64,000 nucleotides of DNA, taken from assembly GCF_015595025.1 (NCBI RefSeq), contig NZ_JADNRL010000019.1, positions 930,805 to 994,804 of the forward strand, in the 5' to 3' direction. The translations under genes were made by a program, and so were the position numbers. Positions 12,027-45,150 of the stretch are shown piece after piece. Within the stretch, counting starts at the first letter, position 1. The number at the start of each line of letters is the position of its first letter. The DNA is from Halomonas sp. KAO (GTDB lineage Bacteria; Pseudomonadota; Gammaproteobacteria; Pseudomonadales; Halomonadaceae). The notes below the pieces were generated by a model. That model did not search any database. It had not been told where the DNA came from and worked only from the letters and a program-made list of their open reading frames with translations.

Positions 12027-14606
12027 TCATCGTGTCTCGCGCCAGCGGTAGAGCATCTCGAGCGCCTGGCGTGGCGTCAGGTCATCGAGGGCAAGCCCGT
12101 CGAGCTCTTCGACCATCGGGTGTGGCTGGCTGGCGAAGAGGTCGTTCTGCAGCGGTGTCGGGGTATCGTCAGCGCCAGCCAGTCGAGTCCGACTGCCCTG
12201 GTCGACCTCCTGCTGCTCGAGCTGGGCAAGCTTCTCTCGAGCCCGGGCGATCACCCCCTGGGGGACACCGGCCAGCTGAGCCACCTGCAGGCCGTAGCTC
12301 TGACTGGCGGGGCCTTCCTCAACCCGGTGCATGAAGACGATGCCATCCCTGTGTTCCGCCGCGGTCAGGTGCACGTTGGCCACCCTCTCGGCCTGCTCGG
12401 CCAGGGCGGTCATCTCGAAATAGTGGGTGGCGAACAGTGTAAAGGCTCGGGTGCGGGTCAGGTGCTCGGCGCTGGCCCAGGCCAGGGAGAGGCCGTCGAA
12501 GGTGCTGGTGCCGCGGCCGATCTCATCCATCAGCACCAGGCTGTGATCGGTGGCGTTGTGCAGGATGCTGGCGGTTTCGGTCATCTCCACCATAAAGGTG
12601 GAGCGGCCGCCGGCCAGGTCGTCCGATGAACCGATGCGGGTGAAGATGCGGTCCACCGGGCCGATCTCGGCCGCGCTGGCAGGCACGAAACTGCCGGTAT
12701 GGGCGAGCAGCACGATCAGCGCGGCCTGGCGCATATAGGTCGACTTGCCGCCCATGTTGGGGCCGGTGATCACCAGCATGCGGCGATCCTCTCCCATGAT
12801 CAGGTCATTGGGCACGAAGGGAGCGTCGCTGACCCGCTCCACCACCGGGTGACGGCCGCCATGAATGGCGATGCCCGGGGCCTCGGCAAGGCGTGGGCGC
12901 ACGAACTCCAGGGCATGGGCGCGCTCGGCGAAGGCGCACAGCACATCAAGCGTCGCCAGGGCCCGGGCACTGGTCTGAAGGGCCTCGAGTTCGCTGTTCA
13001 GGGTCTCGAGCAACCCCTCGTAGAGCAGTTTCTCGCGTGCCAGGGCGCGGGACTTCGCCGACAGGGCCTTGTCCTCGAACTCCTTGAGCTCGGGGATGAT
13101 AAAGCGCTCGGCATTCTTCAGGGTCTGGCGACGGATATAGTCCGCCGGGGCCTCCTTGGCTTGTGCCCTGGGGATCTCGATGAAATAGCCGTGCACTCGG
13201 TTGTAGCCGACCTTGAGGCCGGGGAGGCCGGTGCGCTCGCGCTCCCGGGTCTCCAGTCTCACCAGGTAATCGCCGGCGTGTTCGGCGAGGCCGCGATGCT
13301 CGTCGAGCTCGGCATCGAAGCCCTCGGCGATCACCCCGCCGTCGCGGATCACCACCGGGGGGTTCTCCACCAGAGCGCGATTCAGGGTGTCGGCGAGCTC
13401 GGGGTAGGGGCGGATATGGCGCTTCAGCTCGTCCAGGGTGGAGCCCTCGGGGAAGTCGGCGAGCCGGGCCTCGAGGTCGGGCAGGGCATTGAAGGCGTCA
13501 CGTAGCCGGGCCAGATCACGCGGGCGGGCGCTGAAGAGGGCCACCCGGGCCAGGATGCGCTCCACATCGCCGATCGCCTTTAGCGAGTCGCCGAGTGCCA
13601 CGAAGCCATCCGCCTCCAGCAGCAGCGTCACGGCGGACTGGCGAGCCTGGACGTGCTCGCGGTCACGCAGTGGACGGTTGAGCCAGCGCTTGAGCAGGCG
13701 TGAGCCCATGGCGGTGGCGGTGGTGTCGAGCACGCTGGCCAGGGTGTTGTCGCCGCTGCCGGCCAGGTTGGTGTCGATCTCCAGGTTGCGACGGCTGGCG
13801 GCGTCGATGACCACGGCGTCGTCGCGGCTCTCCACGCCGATGGCGGTGACATGAGGCAGGCGCGAGCGCTGGGTATCCCGGGCGTACTCCACCAGCACGC
13901 CGGCGGCGGTGATGGCGGCGGAGAGGTGCGCGCAGCCGAAGCCACGTAGATCCTGGACGCCGAACTGGTCGCAGAGCAGACGGGTCGCGCTCTCCGGGTC
14001 GAACAGCCAGTCGCTCTGGCGACGCAGCCCCCGACGCCCCTCCAGGGCCGGCGGCAGATTCAGACCCTCGGCCACCAGCAGCTCGGCCGGGTCGAGGCGC
14101 TGGAGCTCGGCGAGCAGTTCGCTCTCACCCTCCACCTCCAGTACGCTGAAGCGTCCACTGGAGAGCTCCAGCCAGGCCAGGCCGATACGCTCGGCGGTGA
14201 CATGCACGGCCACCAGCAGGTTGTCGCGGCGAGCATCGAGCAGCGCCTCGTCATACAGGGTGCCGGGGGTGACGATGCGTACCACGCGACGCTCTACCGG
14301 CCCCTTGCTGGTGGCGGGGTCGCCGATCTGCTCGCAGATCGCCACCGATTCGCCGGCGGCCACCAGGCGCGCCAGGTAGCCCTCGGCGCTATGGTAGGGG
14401 ATCCCGGCCATGGGAATCGGCTGGCCGGCGGACTGGCCGCGCTGGGTCAGGGTAATGTCGAGCAGTGCCGCGGCGCGCCTAGCATCGTCGAAGAAGAGCT
14501 CGTAGAAGTCACCCATGCGATAGAAGAGCAGCACCTCGGGATGCTCGCGCTTGATCTTCAGGTACTGGGCCATCATCGGCGTATGCTGGGTGCTGGCCTG
14601 GGACAT
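12027..14606 (-). CDS. mutS: DNA mismatch repair protein MutS
   Basis: MutS (859 residues) recognises base mismatches and small loops and starts methyl-directed repair with MutL. The N-terminal mismatch-reading domain has the Phe-X-Glu motif within [14 protein letters not shown]. The C-terminal ABC-type ATPase has Walker [10 protein letters not shown], then ELTTFMVEM-like STFMVEMTE, and Walker [20 protein letters not shown] 14606 is chosen because [19 protein letters not shown] is the usual N-terminus; CAGGAG lies 13 bases upstream. The open frame continues another 31 codons upstream without family similarity. It is divergent from pncC, with recA beyond. Confidence 0.96.
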
Positions 14607-14781
14607 GGCGATTGCTGGGCTCCTGATCGTGTAGAAGGTCTTGTAGATGGTCTCGTTGAGCGGTCGGCAGAGACGCACAGGGGATGGCGGTGCCTGCAAC
14701 CCCGCGGCAAAGGCAGTATTCTACGCAGATGGCCTCGCCTCGTCAGGCTTGCCTTCGATCCACCGAGCAGGAGTCTTCAGC

Positions 14782-15294
14782 ATGTCCCACTCAGCCGCGA
14801 GCCTTGCCAATCTCGACCTCGCCACTCTGGCCGAGCGCCTGGGTCGACTGTGTCGCGAAAAGGGGGTCACCCTCACCTGTGCCGAGTCCTGCACCGGTGG
14901 TGGCGTGGCCAGCGTGGTCACCTCGGTCGCCGGCAGCTCCGACTACTTCGAGACCGGCTATGTGACCTACTCCAATGCCGCCAAGGTCCGTCTTCTCGGG
15001 GTGCCCGAGGCGCTGCTCGACCAGCACGGTGCCGTGAGCCGTGAGACGGTGGAGGCGATGGTGACGGGAGCCTGCCGTGACAGCGGTGCCGATCTCGGCG
15101 TGGCGGTCAGTGGCGTGGCCGGGCCGGGCGGTGGCAGCGCCGACAAGCCGGTAGGTACCGTATGGCTGGCCTGGGGCGATGGCGAGGGGGCCGAGGCCGA
15201 ATGCTACCGCTATCCTGGCGATCGCCGAGCCGTTCGCGAGCAGGCGGTGCGCGAGGCGCTGGTCGGCGTGGTGCAACGCCTCGAGGAGCGCTGA
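14782..15294 (+). CDS. pncC: Nicotinamide-nucleotide amidohydrolase (CinA C-terminal family)
   Basis: PncC (170 residues) deamidates nicotinamide mononucleotide to nicotinate mononucleotide in the NAD salvage cycle; it is the stand-alone version of the CinA C-terminal domain. Family motifs are TCAESCTGGG, GYVTYSNAAK, AVSGVAGPGGGSADKPVGTVW and the C-terminal REALVGVVQRL helix. ATG 14782 has GCAGGAG upstream; an in-frame GTG at 14647 would add 45 unrelated residues. The mutS / pncC / recA arrangement is common in gammaproteobacteria, and recA starts 105 bp further on. Confidence 0.93.
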   Translation: MSHSAASLANLDLATLAERLGRLCREKGVTLTCAESCTGGGVASVVTSVAGSSDYFETGYVTYSNAAKVRLLGVPEALLDQHGAVSRETVEAMVTGACRDSGADLGVAVSGVAGPGGGSADKPVGTVWLAWGDGEGAEAECYRYPGDRRAVREQAVREALVGVVQRLEER

Positions 15295-15350
15295 ATCCAG
15301 GAGCGCCCGGGAAAACTTTCGCTGGCCGAGCGCGCCATTTTTCCCCATAA

Positions 15351-15370
15351 TACTGTTCAATCATCCAGTA
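15351..15370. promoter_or_regulatory. LexA (SOS) box of the recA promoter
   Basis: The 20-mer tactgttcaatcatccagta matches the LexA consensus at both ends, with CTG and CAG separated by 10 bases and flanking TA. It overlaps a -10-like TATAAA at 15369-15374, 26 bases before the native recA start. It should make this promoter DNA-damage inducible. After the island insertion it is the only LexA box seen upstream of the incoming recA. Confidence 0.85.
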
Positions 15371-15399
15371 TAAAGAGACCCAGATTGAGGAGATCCGTG

Positions 15400-15654
15400 A
15401 TGGCTCAGGAAGACAATCGCTCCAAGGCGCTGGACGCCGCCCTATCCCAGATAGACCGCCAGTTCGGCAAGGGGACCGTGATGCGCCTGGGCGATGCGCC
15501 GCGGGTGGTGATGCCCTCGGTCTCCACCGGCTCGCTGGGCCTGGATATCGCCCTCGGCATCGGCGGTCTGCCGCTGGGTCGGGTTGTCGAGATATTCAAA
15601 TCACGACACGAGAATTCGGTTCATCTAGATAACCCCTTTCATTTCAATAGCTAA
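15400..15654 (+). pseudogene. recA: Native recA, truncated after codon 66
   Basis: The first 66 residues are a normal gammaproteobacterial RecA with host-like GC-rich codons ([15 protein letters not shown] to GRVVEIF). The expected GPESSGKT Walker A does not follow: from about 15598 the frame runs into 18 unrelated, AT-rich codons and stops at 15654. ATG 15400 has GAGGAG before it and lies behind the LexA box. The protein lacks the whole ATPase core and cannot act as a recombinase. The break falls at gagatatt, a string repeated nearly exactly at the same place in the incoming recA (gaaatatt, 15913). This is the insertion point of the island. No 3' half of the native gene is visible in the window. 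Confidence 0.93.
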
Positions 15655-15729
15655 GGCATGGAAGCGAGATCAATAAACCTTGAACCAGTTCTTTTCGCCT
15701 GTGTCGCATCACTAATTCGGAGAAACCTA

Positions 15730-16758
15730 ATGGATGACAATCGTTCCAAAGCCCTGGCGGCAGCCCTGAGTCAAATTGAACGGCAGTTTGGTAAAGGTGC
15801 CGTTATGAAGATGGGGCAAGATGCCCAGCTTGATATTCCATCAATCTCAACCGGGTCATTGGGGCTTGATATCGCGCTTGGTATCGGCGGAATTCCGCGT
15901 TCAAGAATATCGGAAATATTTGGGCCCGAGAGCAGCGGCAAAAGTACTTTATGTTTGCAGATGGTAGCCGAGGCCCAAAAAATGGGCATTACGTGTGCCT
16001 ATGTAGATGCTGAGCATGCAATGGATCCTGGTTATGCACAGAAGCTAGGTGTTAACTTGGATGATTTGCTAATTTCGCAACCGGATAATGGAGAGCAGGC
16101 ACTAGAAATCGTAGATATGCTTATACGTTCTCAAGCGGTTGGCCTCGTCATTGTGGATTCTGTAGCAGCTCTTGTTCCAAGAGCTGAAATTGAAGGCGAG
16201 ATGGGCGATAGTCATGTTGGTCTTCAGGCTCGACTAATGTCCCAGGCTCTGCGAAAAATCACTGCAAACGTGAAGAATTCTAATTCTGCTGTAGTGTTCG
16301 TTAACCAGATACGTATGAAAATTGGAGTCATGTTTGGCTCTCCTGAAACAACAACAGGTGGTAATGCTCTAAAGTTTTACTCTAGTGTACGTATGGACAT
16401 CCGGCGCACGGGGTCAGTAAAAGAAGGTGATGAAGTCGTTGGAAACGAAACACGTGTTAAGGTTGTGAAAAACAAAGTGGCTCCACCATTCAGGCAGGCT
16501 GAATTTCAGATCATGTATGGTTCGGGAACGAATAGGCTCGGAGAAGTTGTCGACCTGGGAGTTAAACAGGGTCTCATAGAGAAATCTGGTGCTTGGTACT
16601 CTTATAAAGGAAATAAGATTGGCCAAGGTAAGGCTAATGCATGCAGATTTTTACAAGATAATCCAGAAATTGGAAGCGAGATTGAGGCTGAAATTCGTAC
16701 GCAGCTACTCCCGAGTAAGCAGCAGCAGCGTGACGAGCCTACTCAAATTGAAGACTAA
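15730..16758 (+). CDS. recA: Divergent island-borne RecA recombinase
   Basis: A complete 342-residue RecA. It has Walker [10 protein letters not shown] (65-73), the [11 protein letters not shown]alker B, the L1 region [22 protein letters not shown] and the L2 region around [18 protein letters not shown], plus a normal C-terminal domain, so it should be active in strand exchange and LexA cleavage. Its DNA is clearly AT-richer than mutS and pncC, with different codon use, and the protein differs from the host N-terminus at many positions ([17 protein letters not shown] against [17 protein letters not shown]). ATG 15730 follows CGGAGA; the same frame is open from 15658. It starts 75 bp after the truncated native recA and has no LexA box of its own, so it probably uses the host promoter. 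It is carried by the island as a replacement. Confidence 0.95.
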
Positions 16759-16790
16759 GCCTCCCGTGTCATCATAGTTATCAGGCCCGT

Positions 16791-16823
16791 CCCAAGGGTG
16801 TAGCCATTGGCAGCACCCTTGGG
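16791..16823 (+). terminator. Hairpin downstream of island recA
   Basis: cccaagggtg and cacccttggg form a perfect 10-bp stem with a 13-base loop, 32 bases after the stop codon of the incoming recA. No T run follows. It may end or protect the recA transcript before the recombinase gene. Confidence 0.5.
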
Positions 16824-16938
16824 GATTGATAAGTGCTCATCACTCTTTGGCAGCAGGTGGTGCCTCAGCACTCTATACTTGTAATACCCTTATTCCCCCA
16901 GTAACATCACCTATGGGCCAACAACCATAGTGGATTCC

Positions 16939-18951
16939 ATGAGTTTATCAGTGCTCGTAGGTGGGCGGGAGCGTGATTTTTTAGTTTTTGTTGAACATTT
17001 GGGGTTGCCTTATTGTGCTGCTATGGCGCATGCATATGAAAATGCCGCATCTGAAGTGGTTGAAGCTTCAGAGGTGACTTATTGGCACTCACTTTCTTTG
17101 TTTTTGCGTTTCCTTTGTGAGTCTGAAGGAGCGATACCCCTAAAGAGTTTTCTACAGACCAGCTTCATACCCGGCGTCACTCAGCCGCCCACGAGTATCC
17201 TTGCGCATTGGCACCTTCTCTTGGCGGAATATCGCTGGCATTTATCGAAGAATCACAATAATGCCATCACTCGAACCAATTATGCATCAGGTGCAAATTG
17301 GGCGCTTAGAGTGTTTGCTAATGCGGGACTTTTACCGCAAGGGCTTAGAATCCCAACCTGGAAAATCAAACATAAAGTCGGACAAGGAAGCACCTTCCTT
17401 GACGTGAATTTTACCGGAAGCGTTGATTTAAATAGCTTGCTGGAAAATTATCAAGACATTCTCGCTGCCTATGGAGATGGTGAAAAGGAGGAAGTAATAA
17501 ATCTTTTATCAAACCTATCTATAGATCGAGAGTTAGGAGAAAAAATAGACATTGTAGATGCTGCAACTATAACTCTTGCAGATCGGATTGAGAAAGTAAG
17601 GGGTCGTTGTGCAAGCATAATAGTTGAGCATATTGACTCTTTGGCCGAAGCAGAAAGATGGATTGCTGATAGCGAGTTTGTATCTAGAGCTAAATTTCTT
17701 AGACAGGTTTTTGAAGATAAATCGCTTAATTCTCATGATAGGGCAAGGAGGTATAAAGAAATACTGTCTCATAATTCACTGGCAGTCTTCGTTGTCTATT
17801 GCGCGATTTATAACAATAAGATCTTTCCAACCGAAAGATTCAGTGATGACTATTATGATGTTTTTTCTGGGCGTATAGGTGTTTCAGGTGTCTCGCGGAA
17901 GGCAATAAGACACCATTTGGGCAGCGATAATCGTGTTCTGGCTGCGTGTTATGCCTTTATATGCTTTGAGGTTGCTGGAAACCCTGACTCTATTGCAGAT
18001 CTTAGGGTTGATAGCTTGAGAAAGGAAGAAAATACTTATGTCATTAGCTGGACCAAGCTAAGGAAAGGAAGGAATAATATTGAAGAGGAATTCGTTCAGG
18101 CACGCTCTAGTGCTACTCCTCTTACTCCCAGAACGCTTACGGTTGTTGATGTCTTTGAACATGTCGTTAGGATGTCCTCGCCTTTGCGAGAGATAGCTAG
18201 TGACGAAGACAGGGATAAGCTTTTTATTAATAATTATAGGAACAACATAAACAATATTGGGAATCTATCTCAGCGCCTTCACTTAAACACTTTGAATAAG
18301 CACTTTGGTGAAATTTGTATTGAGGTGAGCGGGGGGGAGTGGTCTAGTGTTCCTAAAGCTATTAGAGGTAGTGTGCTGCTTCTTGAAGCAATGGTTTCTA
18401 GGGACGCAGTAGCAGTTAGCAAGAAGGGAAGGCATACAGGGCTGGCTATGGCGACTAAATATACCCGTCATATACCGGATATTTTGCGAAGAGATAAAAA
18501 CATTAGAGACTTCATAAACTGGTTTGAGACCTTAATAACAATTGATATCGTGGAATTTGCTAAGAAGGTAGGGATTGATGAAGAGGATTATGCTAGGAGA
18601 AAAAATGATATCATTAACCATCAAATTGGTGGCCTGCATTGCTCAGATCCCTTTTCAGGTGTTCAGGAAGAAACAGTTCGCGGTGAGGTATGTCACCGAA
18701 TAGATCGATGTATGTCATGTGAGAAAAGGCGGTCTATCTTCGTCATGTCTGAAAGTAACATAGTTTCTTTGCTTCACTGGAAGGCAGTTCTTGATCGTGC
18801 AAAGAATAGTCTCCAAGAAGAAGAATATAAAAAGTGGTTTACTTGGCATCTGTACACTATTCTATTAGCTGAACGACTTGAAGAAGATCCTTCGCATGCC
18901 CGATTATTGTCCAATGCGGAACCTGTCAACCTGATTCGGACAGATCGTTAA
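16939..18951 (+). CDS. Large tyrosine-recombinase-like integrase of the recA island, 3' end cut by an IS
   Basis: A 670-residue AT-rich gene next to the target gene recA. Only weak family similarity can be read by eye, but the catalytic spacing of tyrosine recombinases fits: a box-I-like Arg356 (DLRVDSL), Lys473 at the HxxR position with Arg476, then His499 and Tyr508 in GRHTGLAMATKYTRH, nine residues apart as usual. An unusual C-terminal extension has Cys568, Cys585, Cys591 and Cys594, a possible zinc-binding set. Position suggests that this enzyme integrates the island into recA. The last codons, from 18924, come from the left end of the IS3-family element, so the true C-terminus is lost. 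The start is uncertain: ATG 16939 or GTG 16930, neither with a clear ribosome-binding site. Large recombinases of gamma-mobile-trio (GMT) elements are a possible relative; this needs a profile search. Confidence 0.65.
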   Translation: MSLSVLVGGRERDFLVFVEHLGLPYCAAMAHAYENAASEVVEASEVTYWHSLSLFLRFLCESEGAIPLKSFLQTSFIPGVTQPPTSILAHWHLLLAEYRWHLSKNHNNAITRTNYASGANWALRVFANAGLLPQGLRIPTWKIKHKVGQGSTFLDVNFTGSVDLNSLLENYQDILAAYGDGEKEEVINLLSNLSIDRELGEKIDIVDAATITLADRIEKVRGRCASIIVEHIDSLAEAERWIADSEFVSRAKFLRQVFEDKSLNSHDRARRYKEILSHNSLAVFVVYCAIYNNKIFPTERFSDDYYDVFSGRIGVSGVSRKAIRHHLGSDNRVLAACYAFICFEVAGNPDSIADLRVDSLRKEENTYVISWTKLRKGRNNIEEEFVQARSSATPLTPRTLTVVDVFEHVVRMSSPLREIASDEDRDKLFINNYRNNINNIGNLSQRLHLNTLNKHFGEICIEVSGGEWSSVPKAIRGSVLLLEAMVSRDAVAVSKKGRHTGLAMATKYTRHIPDILRRDKNIRDFINWFETLITIDIVEFAKKVGIDEEDYARRKNDIINHQIGGLHCSDPFSGVQEETVRGEVCHRIDRCMSCEKRRSIFVMSESNIVSLLHWKAVLDRAKNSLQEEEYKKWFTWHLYTILLAERLEEDPSHARLLSNAEPVNLIRTDR

Positions 18952-20038
18952 AAATTAGTGTCGATTTCGTCGCGGTGGCACCTGCCGCCGATAGCGTCGG
19001 GAAGTTCACCACGCTGTAGGGGGCCGGGTCGTCGTCATCGGGCTGTACTGGATTGATCGAGACACTGTCCGGTGGCAGCGCCACCTTGGGGCGTCCGCGT
19101 AGGAACCGCTCGGGATGCGCCTCGAAGCTGTCATCGAGCGCTCGCTGGCGGACCTCGGCAATCTCGCGATATCGGCCGGTGAAGACCTGCTCCGGCGTGA
19201 AGCCAGCCAGCCCGCTGTGATGGTGCTGCAGGTTGTACCAGTCGACGTAAGCGCTGTACCACTGCCGGGCATGGACGATGCTCTCGAAGCGCCCCGGGTA
19301 ATCGGGCTGGTATTTGCTGGTCTTGAACTGGCTTTCGCTGAAGGGGTTGTCGTTGCTGACCCGCGGCCGACTATGACTGCACGTGACCCCCAGCTCTCCC
19401 ATGAGGTCCAGATAGCTCCGGGCGATCATCGGCGAGCCTCGATCCTGGTGGAGCGTCAGTGCGCCATGCGGGATACCGTAGCGATCCACGGCCTCCTGGA
19501 AGAGCTGCTGAGCCAAGGCGGCATTCTCCTTGTGGGAGACCATCCAGGCCACGATGAAGCGGCTGTACAGGTCCAGCACCACGTAGAGGTTGAGGTAGAC
19601 GCCGCGTCGCCGCGTGGGCAATTTGCTGATGTCCCACGTCCAGGCCTCATTGGCGGCCCTTGCCGTGATGCGTGGGACGGCATGGTGTTGGGGAGCACGC
19701 TGAGGACGGCGGTCACCGCTCTCCTTGGCCTCACGCAGCTGCCGGTACCACGTGCTGAGCGAGCCAAGATAGATCCCTTGCTGCAGCAGGTCGTGGTAGA
19801 TCTCATACACCGGCTGATCCCGATAGGGCTCGCTATGCGCGATCTCCAGCATTTTCGCTCGCTCCTCGGCCGACAGGGCCCTGGGCTGCGGGCAATGCCG
19901 GCGCGACGTCGAAGCTCCGGTATAAGGCTCATGGCGGCGTTTTCGCCAGGCGTACACCGTGCTGCGGTTGATGCCCAGGACTCGGCAGGCCATGGCCAAT
20001 GGGAGGCGCGCCGGGCGCTCTTCGAGCACCGTGATCAT
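18926..20038 (-). CDS. IS3-family transposase, OrfB (DDE integrase)
   Basis: This 370-residue protein is the catalytic subunit. It begins with an HTH region (CRVLGINRSTVYAWRKRR), then the HTH_21-like segment (HSEPYRDQPVYEIY) and the rve integrase core: first Asp in WTWDISKLP, second Asp in LHQDRGSPM, and Glu in SESQFKTSKYQPD, followed by HHHSGLAGFTPEQVF. Its ATG overlaps the stop of OrfA by four bases (ATGA), so translation is probably coupled; there is no need for frameshifting to make OrfB itself. The frame is intact and the copy may be active. Confidence 0.93.
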   Translation of the reverse strand: MITVLEERPARLPLAMACRVLGINRSTVYAWRKRRHEPYTGASTSRRHCPQPRALSAEERAKMLEIAHSEPYRDQPVYEIYHDLLQQGIYLGSLSTWYRQLREAKESGDRRPQRAPQHHAVPRITARAANEAWTWDISKLPTRRRGVYLNLYVVLDLYSRFIVAWMVSHKENAALAQQLFQEAVDRYGIPHGALTLHQDRGSPMIARSYLDLMGELGVTCSHSRPRVSNDNPFSESQFKTSKYQPDYPGRFESIVHARQWYSAYVDWYNLQHHHSGLAGFTPEQVFTGRYREIAEVRQRALDDSFEAHPERFLRGRPKVALPPDSVSINPVQPDDDDPAPYSVVNFPTLSAAGATATKSTLIFNDLSESG

Positions 20039-20439
20039 GGTTCGCTCCCATTGTTCATGCGATCGAGCATCGATAGCGCTTTTTTTTGGAGCGATAGGCA
20101 GTCTTCGGCGGTCGAGAGCCTCTGCTGAAGACGGGCGTTCTCACGCTCCAGTGCCTCGATACGCTTCTGCTCCGGCGTCTTGCTCGGGTTCGGCCCTGGG
20201 GCAGTCTTGTGGAGCTTCTCCACGCCGCTCTCGGCAAGCTCCTTGCGCCAAGTGGTCAGCTGGCTGTTGTAGAGCTTTTCGCGGCGTAACAGCTGCCCGA
20301 GCTCACCATGCTGGCAGGCATCGGCTTCCGCGAGGATGCGCAACTTGTATTCGGTCGAGAACTGACGACGTGTGCGTTTCTCCAGCTTGGGATTTGGCGT
20401 GACCTGATGATCGGGCAGCTCGGTTGGCGGTTTCGGCAT
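20035..20439 (-). CDS. IS3-family transposase, OrfA (DNA-binding helix-turn-helix)
   Basis: A 134-residue OrfA with an N-terminal HTH (RRQFSTEYKLRILAEADAC) and a C-terminal leucine-rich helix (EQKRIEALERENARLQQRL) that normally makes dimers. It recognises the inverted repeats. It ends in the ATGA overlap with OrfB. Intact. Confidence 0.92.
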   Translation of the reverse strand: MPKPPTELPDHQVTPNPKLEKRTRRQFSTEYKLRILAEADACQHGELGQLLRREKLYNSQLTTWRKELAESGVEKLHKTAPGPNPSKTPEQKRIEALERENARLQQRLSTAEDCLSLQKKALSMLDRMNNGSEP

Positions 20440-20481
20440 GATACGGGCTCCTGAACCTCGGGCTCTGATATTGAGCTTAAC

Positions 20482-21252
20482 TCACTGAGCCGGTGTATGG
20501 ATGCAGGTTGACACACAGGGAAGGTACACAAGCACCAATTCAGCAATGATCGGACAAACGACTACTATTGCCATCACCTTGAGCCCGCGAGATAACCCTT
20601 TCAGTTCCTTATTTTTCTCTTTTGCTAGATCATCAAATCCATCATAAAGCCCTACGAAATTGAAGGCGGTCTTGTATTCGTCTAGAGCTTCTTTGAGACG
20701 ATTTACTTCCTTCTCTTTGTCTTCAATTTCTTGGTCCCAGTTACTTTTTAGTTCCTGAGCCTTTGCAGACACTTTATTAAAATCCTTTATGCTATCGATA
20801 GCTTCGTTATTCGATAGCTGTTTGAGGATATTGATGGGCATATCTCGGATAGCATATTCAATCTGCTCCCGTGCATCGTGCTCAAATTCTTCAAGATTAT
20901 TGAATACGAATCTTCTAGCTTGCTCAAACTCCATCGAAAGGTCATTCTTGATGCTTAAGTAGAGTTCGAACAAAAAACGAAAACACATGGAACATATGTC
21001 ATCTAGCCGCTCCTTGTTTAATTCCTTTTCCTCATCAGAAAGACGGTTGATAAAATGGTCTCCGATCCAACCGATATTAATTTGGCATTGTCCATTCCAC
21101 TGATCCGGATTAACCTCCATCGAGTTCACTACCAGCCGAATTAGGCTGTTCCTCGAAGTTTCGAAGTCATTTGTCGGGGTGAGGCCATCTATCTTGGTCT
21201 TAAATCGGGCCAAGACTACTTTGCTCTGATTAGTGTTAAATAATTCTTGCAT
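20482..21252 (-). CDS. Island protein with coiled coil and C-terminal membrane helix, truncated by the IS
   Basis: I do not recognise the family. The 256-residue frame is AT-rich like the island recA. The N-terminal two thirds is helical and charged. A coiled-coil stretch (SAKAQELKSNWDQEIEDKEK and onwards) is followed by a hydrophobic helix (MAIVVVCPIIAELVLVYL), which suggests a membrane-anchored cytoplasmic sensor. From about 20513 down the codons belong to the right end of the IS3 element, so the natural C-terminus is missing. ATG 21252 has AAAGGA close upstream; a TTG at 21267 is the alternative. Convergent with the recombinase across the IS. A defence or stress-related cargo gene is possible but only by position. 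Confidence 0.55.
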   Translation of the reverse strand: MQELFNTNQSKVVLARFKTKIDGLTPTNDFETSRNSLIRLVVNSMEVNPDQWNGQCQINIGWIGDHFINRLSDEEKELNKERLDDICSMCFRFLFELYLSIKNDLSMEFEQARRFVFNNLEEFEHDAREQIEYAIRDMPINILKQLSNNEAIDSIKDFNKVSAKAQELKSNWDQEIEDKEKEVNRLKEALDEYKTAFNFVGLYDGFDDLAKEKNKELKGLSRGLKVMAIVVVCPIIAELVLVYLPCVSTCIHTPAQ

Positions 21253-37767: not shown

Positions 37768-38706
37768 TCAGTGGTTCCCTAAGTCCAAGTCCCCAAGGAG
37801 GGTAATTACCCGCTCAGCAATCATATTGCTAACCCGTTGATTAGACTCCTTACTTAGCCCAGCAATATGAGGAGTTAGGATGAGGTTAGGAGCAGTGGCT
37901 AGAATATCGTTAGAAGGCAAAGGTTCCTCTGAAAATACATCAAGGGCAGCGCCTGCTAAATGGCCAGTATGCAGACACTCTGCTAAAGCAATCTCATCGA
38001 CAATATCGCCTCTCGAAGAGTTTATGAGAATAGCTCCTTGCTTCATTTTAGCTAGCATGGATCGATCAATTAATTTATAAGTTTCCTCTGTGGCGGGCAG
38101 GTGTAGGCTTATCACGTCGCATTCCGTGACTAGGTAATCTAGTGAGCAAAATGTAATATGTTCTGATTCCATATTTTTTCCCCCACTGCTTCGACTAGTT
38201 GCATAGACCTCCATGCCTAACGCAGAGCCGAGCTTCGCTAAATGCATGCCGATGCTGCCCAACCCGACAATGCCGAGACGCTTACTTGAAAGCTCTTGTC
38301 CTCCAGATAATTCCTGACGAGGCCAATCTCCTCTAGCCACAGAATCGCTATGAAGAAAAGCTTTTCTGAGCAGCATCATCGCCGTGCAAATGACGTATTC
38401 AGCGACGGCAACTGAATTCGCGCCATACGCAGGAACGACATTTATCCCTCTTTTTTGGCAAAGGTCAACGTCTATATTATCCAGCCCTACCCCCAACCGG
38501 CCTACTATCCGTAAGTTAGGAGCAGCGTCCAAGAGTTCCTCATCCACCTGGGTGCGATTGCGTATAAGGAGCGCTTGTGCCTGATGAAGCAATCTGAGCA
38601 AATCCTTACGCGACTCAACGAGCGTCGGATCAAAGAAGGTCGCATAGCGTGTGCTTAATCGCTCTACAGCTGACTGCTCCATAAACTCACTAATAACGAT
38701 GCGCAT
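37768..38706 (-). CDS. D-isomer-specific 2-hydroxyacid dehydrogenase
   Basis: A 312-residue NAD(P)-dependent dehydrogenase. The Rossmann motif GLGSIGMHLAKLGSALGMEV lies near the middle, and the catalytic Arg, Glu and His appear in NSSRGDIVDE, DVFSEEPLP and LTPHIAGLS. Substrate is an alpha-keto or 2-hydroxy acid, or a phosphoglycerate-type acid. ATG 38706 follows GAGGAA. The base composition is AT-richer than the core genome. A sugar-acid-dehydratase-like gene lies 20 bp upstream in the same direction, so the two probably act in one catabolic route. Confidence 0.88.
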   Translation of the reverse strand: MRIVISEFMEQSAVERLSTRYATFFDPTLVESRKDLLRLLHQAQALLIRNRTQVDEELLDAAPNLRIVGRLGVGLDNIDVDLCQKRGINVVPAYGANSVAVAEYVICTAMMLLRKAFLHSDSVARGDWPRQELSGGQELSSKRLGIVGLGSIGMHLAKLGSALGMEVYATSRSSGGKNMESEHITFCSLDYLVTECDVISLHLPATEETYKLIDRSMLAKMKQGAILINSSRGDIVDEIALAECLHTGHLAGAALDVFSEEPLPSNDILATAPNLILTPHIAGLSKESNQRVSNMIAERVITLLGDLDLGNH

Positions 38707-38726
38707 TAGATCTTCCTCTGGCTGGG

Positions 38727-39974
38727 TCACTGTCTCACTTCTTCGGATAAAACCATCCATTCGCTTGCTAGTGACAAGTCTGGCTCAACACCAAGCCCCG
38801 GGGCAGAGGGGATTTCCATTAAACCGTCATTGATACGCGGTGTTGGCATGGCGAGGACCTCACGAAGAGGGTTATAATTGCTGTCCACTTCAAGCAAACC
38901 ATCCCCACCTACTGCAGCAAGTAGATGTGATGAGGTTACGAGCCCTATCCCACCGCCCAAGTAATGTGGGCAATAACGTACACCTGCTTCTAATATTCTC
39001 CGGGCTACTGTCACGCAGCCAGTGATGCCACCCCATTTACATACATCCGGCTGCAAGACACGAAAAGCATTTGATTGTATGAGAGCATCAAATGCTTGAA
39101 GGCTGCGTATATTTTCTCCTCCAGCAATTGGCACCTTTGTCTCATCTGTAAGCGAACGCCACTCATGGATAGGCCGATCGACAGCCATGGGTTCTTCTAC
39201 CCAGCCAGGATTGAATTCTGCTAGCGAGTTGGTCATTTCTATCGCAGTGTCGAGATCCCATGCTTGGTTCGCATCAAACATTAACTGCTCCCCCGGCTTC
39301 AGGTCGACCGCAACCTCACGCACCACGGCGAGATCTTGACTACTTCCGAAGCCAACCTTTATCTTAAAAGCATTGAAGCCTTGGTCACGACAGCGTTCGA
39401 TAGTCTTATTGGCTTCTTTCAGGTTGATGCCGCTTGCATAGGTAGGAACTGTTGTTGTGTTGCCTCCAAGAGCCTTTGCTAATCCCTTTCCAGATCTGCG
39501 CGTTACCAAGTCCCATAATGCAATGTCAACACCAGCTATGGCTTGTGCCAAAGGACCCCATTCACCAGACTGAAGGGTAAGAGTGCGTAATGATCTTTCG
39601 AGGTATAGGTAAGCATCGGCAGGATTCTGAAATGTTTGGCCAAGAAGGTGGGGCGCCAGGGCTGTAGTGACAAGCCGTGCACGATGTTCCGCGCCACAAC
39701 TGGGGAAATTTGACCAAACCTCTCCCCAGCCTACTGCACCACTTATGTCCTCAACCCTAACGACAACTGCAGGTCGGTCGTGCATGACACCAAAAGAAGT
39801 GATAACCGGCTGACTGATCGGCACTCGAAAAACATACGTGTTGATGCGTCTGATAGCTATTGGTGACTCATTATCCAAAAAGCTGTGGGTAGCACCATGG
39901 TTAGGAAGCATCGGTTCAGAGGGGATGGCTGTTTGGGACGACTCTAGGGTAGTGCTTTTGTTGAAAAAACTCAT
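38727..39974 (-). CDS. Enolase-superfamily (mandelate racemase/muconate lactonizing type) dehydratase or racemase
   Basis: A 415-residue enolase-superfamily protein. It shows the KxK base in AFKIKVGFG, metal ligands in MFDANQAWD, GWVEEPMA and AGGENI, and a late His in YCPHYLGGGIG. Members dehydrate sugar acids or racemise hydroxy acids; the exact reaction cannot be read off. About 35 N-terminal residues before RRINTYVFRVPI are not typical and the true start may be later. It pairs with the downstream D-2-hydroxyacid dehydrogenase, and the nearby GntR and tctCAB genes suggest uptake and breakdown of an acid sugar or related carboxylate. Confidence 0.85.
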   Translation of the reverse strand: MSFFNKSTTLESSQTAIPSEPMLPNHGATHSFLDNESPIAIRRINTYVFRVPISQPVITSFGVMHDRPAVVVRVEDISGAVGWGEVWSNFPSCGAEHRARLVTTALAPHLLGQTFQNPADAYLYLERSLRTLTLQSGEWGPLAQAIAGVDIALWDLVTRRSGKGLAKALGGNTTTVPTYASGINLKEANKTIERCRDQGFNAFKIKVGFGSSQDLAVVREVAVDLKPGEQLMFDANQAWDLDTAIEMTNSLAEFNPGWVEEPMAVDRPIHEWRSLTDETKVPIAGGENIRSLQAFDALIQSNAFRVLQPDVCKWGGITGCVTVARRILEAGVRYCPHYLGGGIGLVTSSHLLAAVGGDGLLEVDSNYNPLREVLAMPTPRINDGLMEIPSAPGLGVEPDLSLASEWMVLSEEVRQ

Positions 39975-40036
39975 GTAAAACCTCTACTTAGTGGTTCTTC
40001 TGTTGGTTAATATGTTTTTTGAAAAAACTGTGTTTA

Positions 40037-41211
40037 GGAATCGCTGAACAATTCATCACCTAGTCTATGAAGTTTCCCAAGAGCGGCTTTTCTGCTTCAG
40101 CAGCATGCTTCAGGCCACCATGGGGTGACCTCTTCGGCCCGGCAGCCGTGTTATTCGACTGCCAGGCCAGATTCAAGACGCACTGACCCCGTCAGCTCGG
40201 CCCTCGCGTCGTGTTGACAGCACCAGGTTCGCCAGGGCAAATAGGCTGAACAACTGCGCCTGGTTCTTGGCCAGCTCCTTGTAGCGAGTCTTCCGATAGC
40301 CGAAGAAGTTCTTGATGACGTGAAACGGGTGCTCGATTTTGGCGCGTATGCTGGCCTTAGTTCTCTCGATCTTCAGCAGCAGTTCTTTCATCGGGCTCTC
40401 TTCTATCTTCTTGATGCCACCCCGCTTGGCCGCGATACAGCAACGGGAACCCTCAGCGTCCTTCTCCCCACCCAGGCGCTTGCTCATGTAACCGGCATCG
40501 GCGTGGACTCGCTTGTCATCATCCCGTACCAGGTGCTCTGCCTGGTGACATCCGCCACGTTGGCCGAAGTGGCAACGACGGTATGCGTCAGCCCGGTCGC
40601 TGCATTGACGCCGATGTGGGCCTTCATGCCGAAGTACCATTGGTTGCCCTTTCGGGTCTGTTTCATCTCGGAGCCGCGCTGCTTGGCTTTGTTCTTGGTG
40701 GAGGGGGCCGCCGCGACGATCGTGCCCTCGCGCATAAACAGGCCCTGCTCGACTAGGCTGGCCTTGATCTTCTCGAAGATCCGCTGGGTCAGGGTGTGCT
40801 TCTCCAGCAAATGACGGAATCGCAGCAGCGTCGTGGCATCTGGCACGCTCTCGATGGCCAGATCGATACCGACGAAGTTGCGCATGGCCTAGCTGTATAT
40901 AGATGGCATCTTCCAACACCTCATCGACCAGCGCATACCACTGTTGGAGGAAGTAGACGCGCAGCATATGCTCAAGGCCGATGGGGGGGCGTCCCCGCTT
41001 CGCCGCCAAGTTCGGGTAGTAGGACGGTGGCAGCGCATCCGTCTGGGCCAGGAACCGCTCACGACGGGTGAGCTTTTTCTTGTCCTGGTGCTCAGTCTGG
41101 GCAAACGAGATCTGCTTCATTGGATGGCTCTGTCAGACGGTAGCAGGGAGGTCAGATTCTATCCCGCAGGAGGTGCTCAGGTAGCTCCGGCGGAATTTGT
41201 GCAGCGTTTCC
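40037..41211 (-). mobile_element. IS5-family insertion sequence, 1175 bp, transposase broken
   Basis: The ends ggaatcgctgaacaattc (40037) and, inverted, ggaaacgctgcacaaattc (41193-41211) match at most positions. TTTA lies directly outside each end (40033-40036 and 41212-41215), a target duplication of the IS5 kind. The element separates the dehydratase from the gntR-tct operon. Confidence 0.85.
40173..41120 (-). pseudogene. IS5-family transposase, frameshifted
   Basis: The N-terminal part (MKQISFAQTEHQDKKKLTRR to LEDAIY) and the C-terminal part (AGYMSKRLGG ... FFGYRKTRYKELAKN) are in one frame. The middle, with MRNFVGIDLAIESVPDATTL and FGMKAHIGVNAATG, is in another (40484-40885), and a TAG lies at the first junction near 40890. 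Two compensating frameshifts and a stop make it inactive. DDE residues fall in GMKAHIGVN, DAGYMS and the EHPFHVIK region. Confidence 0.88.
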
Positions 41212-41263
41212 TTTACGATCCTGTTCAAAGGTACTATGATGCAGACCATATGACAACGTGCTG

Positions 41264-42019
41264 ATGACCATGAAACGATCCTCATCAAAATTTACCCGAA
41301 GCCATCTGCCAATGTATGCGCAACTTGCGGCTTTGCTGCGGCAAAGGATCAGTGCTGGTGAGTGGGACCTAAATGAACGCCTGCCAACGGTGGAGAACCT
41401 GATAGCACAATACCAAGTCGCAAGGTCCACGGTTCGTCAGGCTATCGGTATTTTGGAGCATGAAGGCTTGATCTGGCGTAAGCAGGGCAAAGGGACCTAC
41501 TTAACACAAGGATTCGAGAGTCAACCTTGCCTTCCTCTGGCAACTCAGTGGGGCCGGCTCATGCACATGATAGAAGGAACTACCATGCGCACTTTCAGCA
41601 CGGGACGTGTAGAAAAACCGTTACTACCCTCGGATGTGTCAAACGAATTTGATAAATGGCAGCGCATTCAGCGCGTTCATAGTAAAGATAATATTCCGTA
41701 TTGTGTAATAGATCTTTACATAGCGGATAGAATCTACGATCTGGATCCCCTAAGGTTTGAGTCTGAGTTGGCCATGCGAGTCATTTCAGAACTAGATTCC
41801 GTTGAGGTCGGTTCGGCTCACCAGACTCTAACTATAAGTGCAGCGAATACGCAACTTGCAGAGCTTTTAGACATAGAATTTGCTTCGCCAGTAGCTGAAG
41901 TAAAGCGAGTAGTTGAAGATGCTTTAGGTAGGGTATTTTATTATTCAGAAATCACCTATCGCGGTGACTTCGTTAGGTTTGATATTGACCTTCTCGGTAA
42001 TAGAGGAAGTGATGTTTGA
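41264..42019 (+). CDS. GntR-family (HutC subfamily) transcriptional regulator
   Basis: A 251-residue regulator with an N-terminal winged HTH (MYAQLAALLRQRISAGEWDL, then ERLPTVENLIAQYQVARSTVRQAI, shortened) and a C-terminal UTRA effector domain. It lies 58 bp before tctC on the same strand and most likely controls the transporter. AT-rich like its neighbours. Start ATG 41264 or 41270; no clear ribosome-binding site. Confidence 0.88.
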   Translation: MTMKRSSSKFTRSHLPMYAQLAALLRQRISAGEWDLNERLPTVENLIAQYQVARSTVRQAIGILEHEGLIWRKQGKGTYLTQGFESQPCLPLATQWGRLMHMIEGTTMRTFSTGRVEKPLLPSDVSNEFDKWQRIQRVHSKDNIPYCVIDLYIADRIYDLDPLRFESELAMRVISELDSVEVGSAHQTLTISAANTQLAELLDIEFASPVAEVKRVVEDALGRVFYYSEITYRGDFVRFDIDLLGNRGSDV

Positions 42020-42077
42020 AGTAGGGTAAAAAGAAAATCCACGCAGTTAAATATTTTAAATATATATGGAGCATGTG

Positions 42078-43031
42078 ATGAAATCTCACAAAATTAAGAA
42101 ACTGATTTCAGGCTTTACATTGGCTTTGTTGGCTGCTGGCGCACAGGCCGATTATCCTGAGCGAAACATTAATTACTACATTCCTTTCAATCCCGGGGGT
42201 GAGTCTGATGTAACGGCTCGCATGCAGGAAGAAGGATTTAAGGAGGCGACAGGGCAAGGGTTCACTTTCCAGTATAAACCTGGAGCTGGTGGCGCCACAG
42301 GATTGTCACAGCTAAACCAAATGGCTGATGATGGCTATAATATCATGGGCTTTAACCTACCACACCTTTTTCTTCAGCCAATGTCTGGCGATGTAGGCTA
42401 TGAAACAGATGATATTGAAGTCGTTTATGTCTTCCAACTGACACCGCATGCATTGATCGTTCCTGCGAGCAGTTCTATCGAGTCATTAGAAGATTTTGTT
42501 TCACGTGCGAAAGAAACCCCAGGAGCTTTAACAGTAGCTGGAGTCGGTTCAAATTCAGCGCCTCATATCGCAAAAGAAATATTCGATGATGCTGCGAGTA
42601 CAACAACTACATATATACCTTTTACAGGCACTTCTGCGTCGACAGCCGCTATGTTAGGGAAACAAGTTGATGCCCAATGGTCCTTTGTAACAGTAGGAGT
42701 GGAGCAAGAAGACAACGTCCGCCTGCTTGGTGTGGCTATGGAAGAACGCCACCCGCTATTCCCCGATGTACCTACATTTAAAGAAATGGGTATCGATCTT
42801 GTAGACGGAGCATACCGTGGCGTAGCTGTTCCCAAGACCACTCCGGAGGAGATCAAACAGGAACTTTCCTCTCTCTTTGCTGAAATAAACAAGTCACCTA
42901 GCTTCCGCCAAACTATGGTGGATAAAGGATACGTTCTAATAGATGTACCCTATTCAGAAGTTCCTGAGTTTATGGAGCGTGTCGGGAGTGATTATAAAGA
43001 AGCGGCTCGACTGCTTGGTCTTGTAGAGTAG
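42078..43031 (+). CDS. Tripartite tricarboxylate transporter substrate-binding protein (TctC/Bug family)
   Basis: A 317-residue periplasmic binding protein with a signal peptide (LISGFTLALLAAGAQA) and the Bug fold: PFNPGGESDVTARM, KPGAGGATGLSQL, a GVGSNSAPHIAKEIF segment and a C-terminal KTTPEEIKQELSS helix. It captures a carboxylate and hands it to TctAB. ATG 42078 follows GGAG. First gene of the tctCAB set. Confidence 0.92.
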   Translation: MKSHKIKKLISGFTLALLAAGAQADYPERNINYYIPFNPGGESDVTARMQEEGFKEATGQGFTFQYKPGAGGATGLSQLNQMADDGYNIMGFNLPHLFLQPMSGDVGYETDDIEVVYVFQLTPHALIVPASSSIESLEDFVSRAKETPGALTVAGVGSNSAPHIAKEIFDDAASTTTTYIPFTGTSASTAAMLGKQVDAQWSFVTVGVEQEDNVRLLGVAMEERHPLFPDVPTFKEMGIDLVDGAYRGVAVPKTTPEEIKQELSSLFAEINKSPSFRQTMVDKGYVLIDVPYSEVPEFMERVGSDYKEAARLLGLVE

Positions 43032-43063
43032 AAGCTGGCTGCCACCATACTTCGGGGAACCAT

Positions 43064-44569
43064 ATGTTTGCATATTTTTTAGATGCGCTTACGCCGTTCA
43101 ATCTCATGCTAGCTATGTTCGGCGTAACTGCTGGGATCACTATTGGTGCCTTACCTGGTCTGACTGCAACAATGGCGGTTGCCGTATTAACGCCAATGAC
43201 ATTTACCATGCCCCCATCATCAGCGTTAATTGTATTGGCGTCTATATATATGGGAGGGATTTATGGTGGCTGTTTTTCAGCGATTCTAGTAAACACCCCA
43301 GGGACACCGTCCTCCATCACGACGACTTTCGATGGGTACCCTATGGCGAAGCGCGGTGATGGAGCACTTGCGCTATCGCTGGCCACCCTCGCTTCTGTTA
43401 TTGGGGGGGCTATTGGCGTACTATTGCTGCTACTCGTCGCTCCTCCTTTGGCCAGAGCAGCACTTGCTTTCGGTCCTGTAGAGTACTTTTGGCTTGCAGT
43501 CCTTGGTCTGACATTAGTTGCCTCTCTATCTGAAGGCAATCTGCTCAAAGGTATTATGGGAGCCTGCTTAGGACTTTTAATATCATTTGTTGGTTCGGCA
43601 GTGATGGGAGGGGATCTTCGCTTTACTTTTGGGAGCCCCACTTTAAGTGGTGGCGTTAATATTGTAGTTGCTCTCATAGGACTTTTTTGCATTCCGGTAG
43701 TCCTAGATCTGATCTCAACAGCTGAGCCCCATATGGAGATGGATAAAGAGCGCCCTCAAGGATTTCGACTGCGAGAGGCAGTGAAGCTATTGCTCAATGA
43801 AAAAATTAATGTTTTCCGTAGTGGAGGCATTGGAGCTTTGGTTGGGGCGCTACCCGCTGCCGGTGGCTCTATTTCGTCTTTGATCGCCTACTCCGAGGCC
43901 AGGCGAAGCTCAAAAAAGTCGCATGAATATGGTAAAGGTGCACCGGGGGGGATTGTTGCGGCAGAAGCAGCGAACAATGCAACCGTTGGGGGAGGCTTTA
44001 TTCCAACTCTAACCTTAGGGATACCGGGCACCCCACCTGACGCAATAATTATGGGGGCGCTTCTGGTGCATGGGGTACAGATTGGCCCCAGCCTGTTCAC
44101 TGAAAATAGTGAGATCGTTTATACCTTTATTTTTGGGTTGCTCGTCGCAACTATTCTTATGCTTCCTATTGGCCTCTTGTTAGGTAGATATGCGTTTCGT
44201 GCATTCATTGCTATACCAAAATCCCTTCTGGTGCCCGGGGTGCTCCTGCTCACGATTCTAGGCACATACGGTATTAATAATAATGTAATTGAAGTGTTTA
44301 TTATGTTGGCATTGGGTGTTGTTGGCTGGGCTCTTAGTCGTGCAGGCTTTTCTCCTGCACCCATTGTTCTCGGTGTGGTGCTCGGGCAGATAGCAGAACA
44401 GGGTTTCGTTCAGGCTTGGCTCATTGGTTCAGCAACTAGTAATCTGTCTGGAATGTTTTTTGGTCGGCCTATATCTCTTGCTATCATCGGCATAATAATA
44501 TTGTCTCTTGGATATCCTTTACTTGCTACGCAGTTAAAAAAATTCGGGAGGCTAAAAGCTCATGATTGA
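43064..44569 (+). CDS. Tripartite tricarboxylate transporter large membrane subunit TctA
   Basis: A 501-residue membrane protein with about 11-12 helices. It carries the family duplications GALPGLTATMAVAVLTPMTF and GALPAAGGSISSLIAYSEAR, and the motifs IYGGCFSAILVNTPGTPSS and LTLGIPGTPPDAIIMGALL. It is the translocation channel of the system. It overlaps tctB by 8 bases, so translation is probably coupled. Confidence 0.95.
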   Translation: MFAYFLDALTPFNLMLAMFGVTAGITIGALPGLTATMAVAVLTPMTFTMPPSSALIVLASIYMGGIYGGCFSAILVNTPGTPSSITTTFDGYPMAKRGDGALALSLATLASVIGGAIGVLLLLLVAPPLARAALAFGPVEYFWLAVLGLTLVASLSEGNLLKGIMGACLGLLISFVGSAVMGGDLRFTFGSPTLSGGVNIVVALIGLFCIPVVLDLISTAEPHMEMDKERPQGFRLREAVKLLLNEKINVFRSGGIGALVGALPAAGGSISSLIAYSEARRSSKKSHEYGKGAPGGIVAAEAANNATVGGGFIPTLTLGIPGTPPDAIIMGALLVHGVQIGPSLFTENSEIVYTFIFGLLVATILMLPIGLLLGRYAFRAFIAIPKSLLVPGVLLLTILGTYGINNNVIEVFIMLALGVVGWALSRAGFSPAPIVLGVVLGQIAEQGFVQAWLIGSATSNLSGMFFGRPISLAIIGIIILSLGYPLLATQLKKFGRLKAHD

Positions 44570-44996
44570 GACTAAACGTGACTGGCCAGGGCTGATAGTA
44601 GCAGTTGTTTTTGTTGGGCTAGGGACTTGGGTTTATAGTGTCTCTAATTCTTTTACTGAATATGCGGCAATATTTCCACGGACTATAGCGATTGTTATGA
44701 TGCTAGTGTCGGCGGCGAATATGGTCGTTTTAATCTTCGGTAAGGGCAGGCCTAATAGTAAGCCGAATGCTGGTTATCGCCCATTCGGGCTTATAGGGGT
44801 TGGTGCGCTCTGGGCTACTTTGATTCCTCTGCTGGGTTTTCTAATAGCTAGCATTTTTGGCTTTCTTGGTGCGATGGTACTTGCAAAATTTAGCCACTGG
44901 TCTAATAAGGATTGGGTTAAATTTACTGCTATCGGCACTTTAGTGGTGACAGTTGCATATAGCCTGTTTAAGTATGTGCTGAATGTTCCACTTTAG
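44562..44996 (+). CDS. Tripartite tricarboxylate transporter small membrane subunit TctB
   Basis: A 144-residue protein with four hydrophobic segments (LIVAVVFVGLGTWVYSV, IAIVMMLVSAANMVVLIF, LWATLIPLLGFLIASIFGFL, TLVVTVAYSLFKYVL), the usual small partner of TctA. Its stop codon touches the solo IS5 end that follows. Confidence 0.88.
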   Translation: MIETKRDWPGLIVAVVFVGLGTWVYSVSNSFTEYAAIFPRTIAIVMMLVSAANMVVLIFGKGRPNSKPNAGYRPFGLIGVGALWATLIPLLGFLIASIFGFLGAMVLAKFSHWSNKDWVKFTAIGTLVVTVAYSLFKYVLNVPL

Positions 44997-45150
44997 GGAA
45001 CCGCTGAACAATTTAGTCATGGGCGCATGAAGCGATCAGTGAGGCCCAAAAACCTTTTCAGTGATCACCTTCTGACCACCTCAGCTGGTTTGCTTTCCTT
45101 GGCAGCCGGGGTATCCGGCTGCCAAGCCAGATTCAAGACGCATTGGCCCC
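44996..45150 (-). mobile_element. Solo left end of an IS5-family element
   Basis: About 155 bases resemble 40037-40190, the end region of the IS5-family element: gggaaccgctgaacaattt at the tip and gccagattcaagacgca near the inner end. The tip is again preceded by TTTA. The rest is replaced by IS1634 copy 1 from 45150. Confidence 0.75.

Follow-up and report, generated by a model that had tools for sequence, protein, structure and literature searches.

The DNA analyzed here, a window of 64,000 nucleotides from Halomonas sp. KAO, contains the left end of an island inserted into the host recA gene, together with a complete foreign recA, hereafter recA2. The window belongs to contig C24 of a 3.73-Mb genome assembled into 47 contigs and rated 100% complete. 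The island is very probably a site-specific integrative element with its attachment site in recA, and a replacement recA is the first gene that it carries behind the left end. The arrangement recurs at the same site in a second genome, that of Oceanospirillum sanctuarii AK56. The whole-genome RecA search recovered recA2 as the sole complete RecA, the other matches being the two native halves, with no second complete native gene. This bears out the proposal of the first-pass annotation that the only RecA at this locus is now the foreign one.

The split host recA and its attachment site

In the window, native recA follows cinA; the 3' part of the gene is found on contig C7 (58,835 in the whole-genome RecA family search), where recX and alaS come next. 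The native 5' fragment (15400..15597, plus strand) starts at 15400 and reads normally for 66 codons, ending in VVEIF, up to a break just before Walker A, much as first described. It covers positions 1-60 of the RecA model and is collinear with the intact recA of a relative, genome G104, to position 473718 of the latter. Past the break, the native frame enters foreign sequence and meets a stop at 15652-15654. The GC content is 67% for native recA versus 46% for recA2. G104, whose intact recA has the same neighbors in the same order on both sides, represents the empty site.

The window aligns to G104 up to position 473,718 and contig C7 from 473,713, which gives an exact 6-bp overlap, ATCTTC, and places the insertion at nt 193-198 of recA (codons 65-66). 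The corresponding spacers are ATATTC at attL (15592..15597, plus strand) and ATCTTC at attR on contig C7, while the O. sanctuarii pair consists of ATTTTC and ATCTAC. The string gaaatatt, suggested earlier as an attachment core, has to be given up: its recurrence in recA2 marks the homologous codon position, and the core is the 6-bp spacer. Among same-genus recA genes, the spacer is ATCTTC in 13 of 16, with ATATTC, ATCTTT, and ATTTTT in one each, a count that excludes one same-genus locus (L038) that did not match the pattern used. The presence of the commonest host form in attR hints that the host's own bases are retained there. In five Oceanospirillum relatives, the spacer matches neither of the two O. 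sanctuarii spacers. Both spacers of the window's genome encode Ile-Phe, so that either one would preserve the recA frame after excision.

At its left end, the element has the terminal sequence AAAT..GAATTCGGTT (15598..15621, plus strand), with an imperfect inverted counterpart, AACCGAATCC..ATTT, at attR, both ends being read by eye; GGAATTCGGTT is also present in the O. sanctuarii left end with matching spacing. At the attR side, an open reading frame (ORF) of 335 aa (L004 14704-15711) encodes 44 residues from the element followed in frame by the C-terminal part of native RecA, its product being a RecA without the N-terminal domain. This fusion was considered as a conserved feature and is taken as incidental, since O. 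sanctuarii has a stop before the match.

The foreign recA and its probable promoter

The gene recA2 (15730..16758, plus strand) encodes a complete foreign RecA of 342 aa with the Walker A sequence GPESSGKS. It starts 75 bp past the stop of the native frame, as had been noted, and 132 bp past the break; in the Pfam search, performed on the longer ORF 15658-16758, it covers positions 1-261 of 262 in the RecA model and 1-56 of 57 in the RecA_C model. Its identity to the native RecA is 69% in the N part (44/64) and 75% in the C part (209/278). The element-type RecAs examined by letter, as well as the O. sanctuarii recA2 product, have GKS in Walker A, and 24 of 25 host loci match a Walker A pattern requiring GKT.

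A RecA tree was built from 59 hand-picked rows (P0014, P0016, P0028, and P0032 were dropped), with bootstrap values rated rough by the tool. The native 3' half groups with the host genus (18 rows, 100/99). A separate 17-row clade (100/98) contains recA2 together with the RecA of an uncultured contig (L018), which speaks against the AT-rich gene being the vertically inherited one. The O. sanctuarii recA2 lies outside this 17-row clade; therefore, recA was probably recruited or replaced by such elements more than once.

The promoter of host recA is kept upstream of the split gene. Its SOS (LexA-type) box, TACTGTTCAATCATCCAGTA (15351..15370, plus strand), is the best 20-mer of the 64-kb window, matching 14 of 20 positions of an E. 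coli-type consensus. The stretch 14300-19000 contains a single CTG-N10-CAG, that of the host recA promoter, and in both the window's genome and O. sanctuarii the interval from the start of native recA to recA2 has none. Since both recA2 genes sit downstream of the host SOS-box promoter, in the same direction and with no SOS box of their own, recA2 is probably driven by the captured host promoter. No terminator-like site was detected between recA2 and int1, the next gene; a hairpin in this interval is within chance expectation, 22 of 200 shuffles folding equally well.

Recombination genes, extent, and cargo of the island

Four recombination genes follow recA2 in the same direction, namely int1, int2, the gene of a small coiled-coil-like protein, and int3. 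The first of these (16930..18916, plus strand) encodes a large protein that, by its predicted fold, is tyrosine-recombinase-like, resembling Tfp and GinC in having no first catalytic Arg. The earlier description of this protein as tyrosine-recombinase-like thus stands for the predicted fold, with the reservations that the ORF has no Pfam or NCBIfam match and that AGNPDSI occupies the expected Arg-I place; KAIRG, GRH, and the Tyr are retained at the motif positions of the family. The int1 ORF (16930-18951, 673 aa) runs into an insertion sequence (IS) that replaces its last codons, and the missing gene end is found on contig C8 (L021), followed by int2 (738 aa), the coiled-coil gene (146 aa), and int3 (408 aa). 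Residues expected of active tyrosine recombinases are present in the int2 and int3 sequences. Uninterrupted relatives of int1 exist.

A search for int1 detected it in two of 275 family genomes, the window's own and O. sanctuarii AK56. In the latter, recA is split at the same place, 32.6 kb of a single contig separates its halves, and no complete RecA was found beyond its own recA2. The gene order is the same as here (recA2, int1 of 691 aa, int2 of 748, coiled coil of 168, and int3 of 411); the recombination proteins are 32-35% identical each, and a helicase is 43% identical. A third member, the uncultured contig L018, carries recA2-int1-int2. In all three, recA2 is directly upstream of int1. 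Furthermore, 6 of 13 element-type RecA rows were tied to an int1 or int2 relative through an equal-sized longest contig.

Searches with int1 gave no match in genome contigs (single sequence), viral contigs (alignment), plasmids, the PDB (sequence profile), or PADLOC, and the sole match in draws of genomes from the order (1/390) and the class (1/369) was the window's own genome, O. sanctuarii being evidently undrawn or unmatched in both. When the recA2-int1 stretch of O. sanctuarii was searched against phages, 46 records were returned, each matched over at most 29% of the query; among the matches listed, almost all were of RecA length and within the recA part. The int1 profile gave low probabilities against single proteins of two plasmids. 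Separately, plasmid NZ_CP070468.1 (L114 1981-7904) has, adjoining betT, a set of four genes (698, 654, 169, and 384 codons) ordered like int1, int2, the coiled coil, and int3.

The first part of the island runs from 15598 to 18916 (plus strand), up to the IS; position 18951, initially taken as the island end, is where the int1 ORF stops within the IS, and the island continues on contigs C8 and C7. The IS, a member of the IS3 family, occupies 18917..20520 (minus strand, 1,604 bp), with transposase ORFs at 18926-20038 and 20035-20439. A comparison of its 14 tips (7 left, 7 right) showed that all pair through 4-bp target duplications (AATG, CCCC, AAGG, CGGC, CACG, TTTG, and TTAC). The one full copy in the window has ends from different pairs. 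Its left flank, AATG (18913..18916, plus strand), has its partner on contig C8 (L021), directly beside the missing 3' end of int1, whereas the right flank, AAGG (20521..20524, plus strand), pairs with the IS tip at C24:868794, about 82 kb upstream, which is followed by 10 N. The other C8 end pairs with the start of C7 (CCCC), and G104 is uninterrupted there. From this pairing, the island order is window-IS-C8-IS-C7. The pairing also rejects the reading of the window beyond 20,520 as island; the sequence from 20,521 on is probably not a true neighbor but a wrong join at the IS, unless two IS copies really recombined. At 38000-45000, the window has another stretch in which the GC content is lower (0.44-0.57).

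The island pieces total 71,056 bp, and the full order is attL, recA2, int1, the IS, the int1 end, int2, the coiled coil, int3, brxA, a partial brxB, SCO, the IS, and C7 to attR. The segment 973-2003 of L021, beside int3, contains brxA and the first part of brxB (92 aa; PADLOC), suggestive of a truncated BREX locus. The C7 genes encode heavy-metal P-type ATPases, a multicopper oxidase, a MerR regulator, cytochrome c maturation proteins, Lgt, GajA, GajB, and a RadD-like helicase, the Gabija pair gajA and gajB being located near attR (L004 7391-11481). Copper may be the metal concerned by the resistance-like genes. Parts of the GC-rich apparent cargo (L017, L109, and L112, with the P-type ATPases, multicopper oxidase, and MerR-type regulator) are 87-95% identical to a distant G104 locus. 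The host-like genes of C7 (metal ATPases, multicopper oxidase, ccm, lgt) and the C8 SCO gene were also considered as a chromosomal rearrangement; cargo is the simpler account because of the CCCC duplication across C8-IS-C7 and the uninterrupted G104 counterpart. Within C7, the 10-N join at 43,489 has a 130-bp duplicate on its flanks, which suggests an overlap join.

Relation to known elements and alternative readings

The closest parallel is offered by the Vibrio islands termed RMEs (recA mobile elements). In PMC4405046 and PMC4334540, these are described as islands of about 30 kb or more within recA (V. cholerae S24 and V. parahaemolyticus 090-96), inserted at nt 494 in V. cholerae and 491 in the other. 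The likeness comprises insertion inside host recA, carriage of a complete divergent recA, a GC content below that of the host, and recombinases; the V. parahaemolyticus RME has at one end four inward genes of 650, 674, 243, and 435 codons (computed from published coordinates), sizes ordered as in int1, int2, the coiled coil, and int3. There are three differences. The site is nt 491-494 rather than nt 193-198; the RME recA and recombinases are at opposite ends, whereas here recA2 is directly upstream of int1 on one strand; and an own LexA box is reported for V. cholerae recA(RME), in contrast to recA2. The comparison covers these published features (site, gene order, and recA promoter). The best reading is of a recA-targeting element of the RME kind that forms a distinct family by site, gene order, and captured promoter. 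The initial placement in the V. cholerae island class accordingly holds for the kind of island and fails for these three features.

Two further groups of elements share parts of the recombination set. Strand-biased circularizing integrative elements (SEs; PMC10214605) similarly have two catalytic recombinases, one of them large, a large protein with the recombinase fold but no catalytic set, a small coiled-coil protein, a 6-bp spacer, and imperfect inverted ends. A parallel case of replacing the gene that is broken is Tn6283, a peroxidase-carrying SE in bcp, as described in PMC5991714. The SE core order is intA-tfp-intB-srap at the left end, unlike the order recA2-tfp-like-intB-like-small-intA-like observed here. 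By blastp against the SE of plasmid pAQU1, int3 matched intA weakly (24%, E 6e-5 in a 23-protein set), and int1, int2, and the coiled coil had no match to the SE proteins at 0.01. In SEs the 6 bp of the target are found in attL, whereas here the common host form is in attR; the spacer polarity may thus be reversed. GInt islands (PMC5385486), whose cargo ranges from 2.5 kb to 70 kb or more, have three integrases and a small protein, a GinC that is without the first Arg as is int1, and a 6-nt staggered exchange. They differ in the ginABCD order, since here the large non-catalytic, large catalytic, and small genes precede the ordinary integrase gene, gene roles being assigned by size and motif. 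They also differ in the reported targets, recA having no occurrence in the main text of PMC5385486. In full-text literature searches that covered few subscription papers, no report of a recA-inserted element outside Vibrio was recognized among the listings.

A different role for recA2 was weighed in view of mosaic genes. The element might chiefly be a vehicle for foreign recA alleles, which would recombine into the host gene and leave mosaics after island loss; we regard this as rather improbable. Among the mosaic-looking RecAs (P0016, P0057-P0060, and P0063), three were tested (P0016, P0058, and P0063): P0016 switches from the window-type recA2 to the host type, and P0058 and P0063 are of element type except for a host-type block close to the C-terminus. 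In addition, P0057-P0060 are named Halomonas or Idiomarina, and P0058 occurs on contigs of up to 409,708 bp. However, P0016 has no contig and may be an assembly chimera, and P0058, compared with the 275 family genomes, has among the matches listed an identity of at most 83%, which is the host level.

It is quite unlikely that recA2 is a passenger in an ordinary island and accidentally placed beside the broken host gene. The other cargo is indeed variable, with metal ATPases, Gabija, and BREX pieces here and tct, aconitase, and regulators in O. sanctuarii; nonetheless, two elements whose recombination proteins are so dissimilar share the site and the recA2-first order, the L018 contig and the six RecA-recombinase links repeat the association, and loss of recA without replacement would presumably be costly. 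Finally, that the break is an artefact of joining two organisms can practically be dismissed: the doubtful join at the IS and the 10-N scaffold joins of the assembly speak for it, while the window is without N, the other recA half lies with recX-alaS in the same genome, the 6-bp overlap with the empty-site relative is exact, and O. sanctuarii has the arrangement on one contig.

For the integrative element favored here, tyrosine recombinases would carry an excised circle into recA via a 6-bp staggered exchange. Insertion at the spacer breaks the host gene, and recA2, to judge from its sequence, would substitute for it. The element would capture the SOS promoter by its co-directional landing inside recA, with recA2 first and the recombinase genes directly behind. 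The host would thereby keep an SOS-controlled RecA, and the downstream recombinase genes might be SOS-coupled too. After loss of the element, the cell would be recA+ only if excision rejoined the halves. In the window's genome, the IS in int1 probably immobilizes the island, and the cell appears to depend on it for DNA repair. We put forward tentatively the wider scenario of a distinct recA-replacing family that adopts the host SOS promoter, so that DNA damage would raise both RecA2 and the mobility genes, the host would become dependent, and recombination between recA2 and the native remnants could leave mosaic recA alleles.

These data suggest that recA swapping is not peculiar to Vibrio and extends to a second family that uses a different site and probably reuses the host SOS promoter. 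As recA is a common phylogenetic and typing marker, trees can go astray where the gene is mosaic or carried by an element. The family also offers a testable case of a mobile element that may render itself indispensable through disruption and replacement of a core repair gene.
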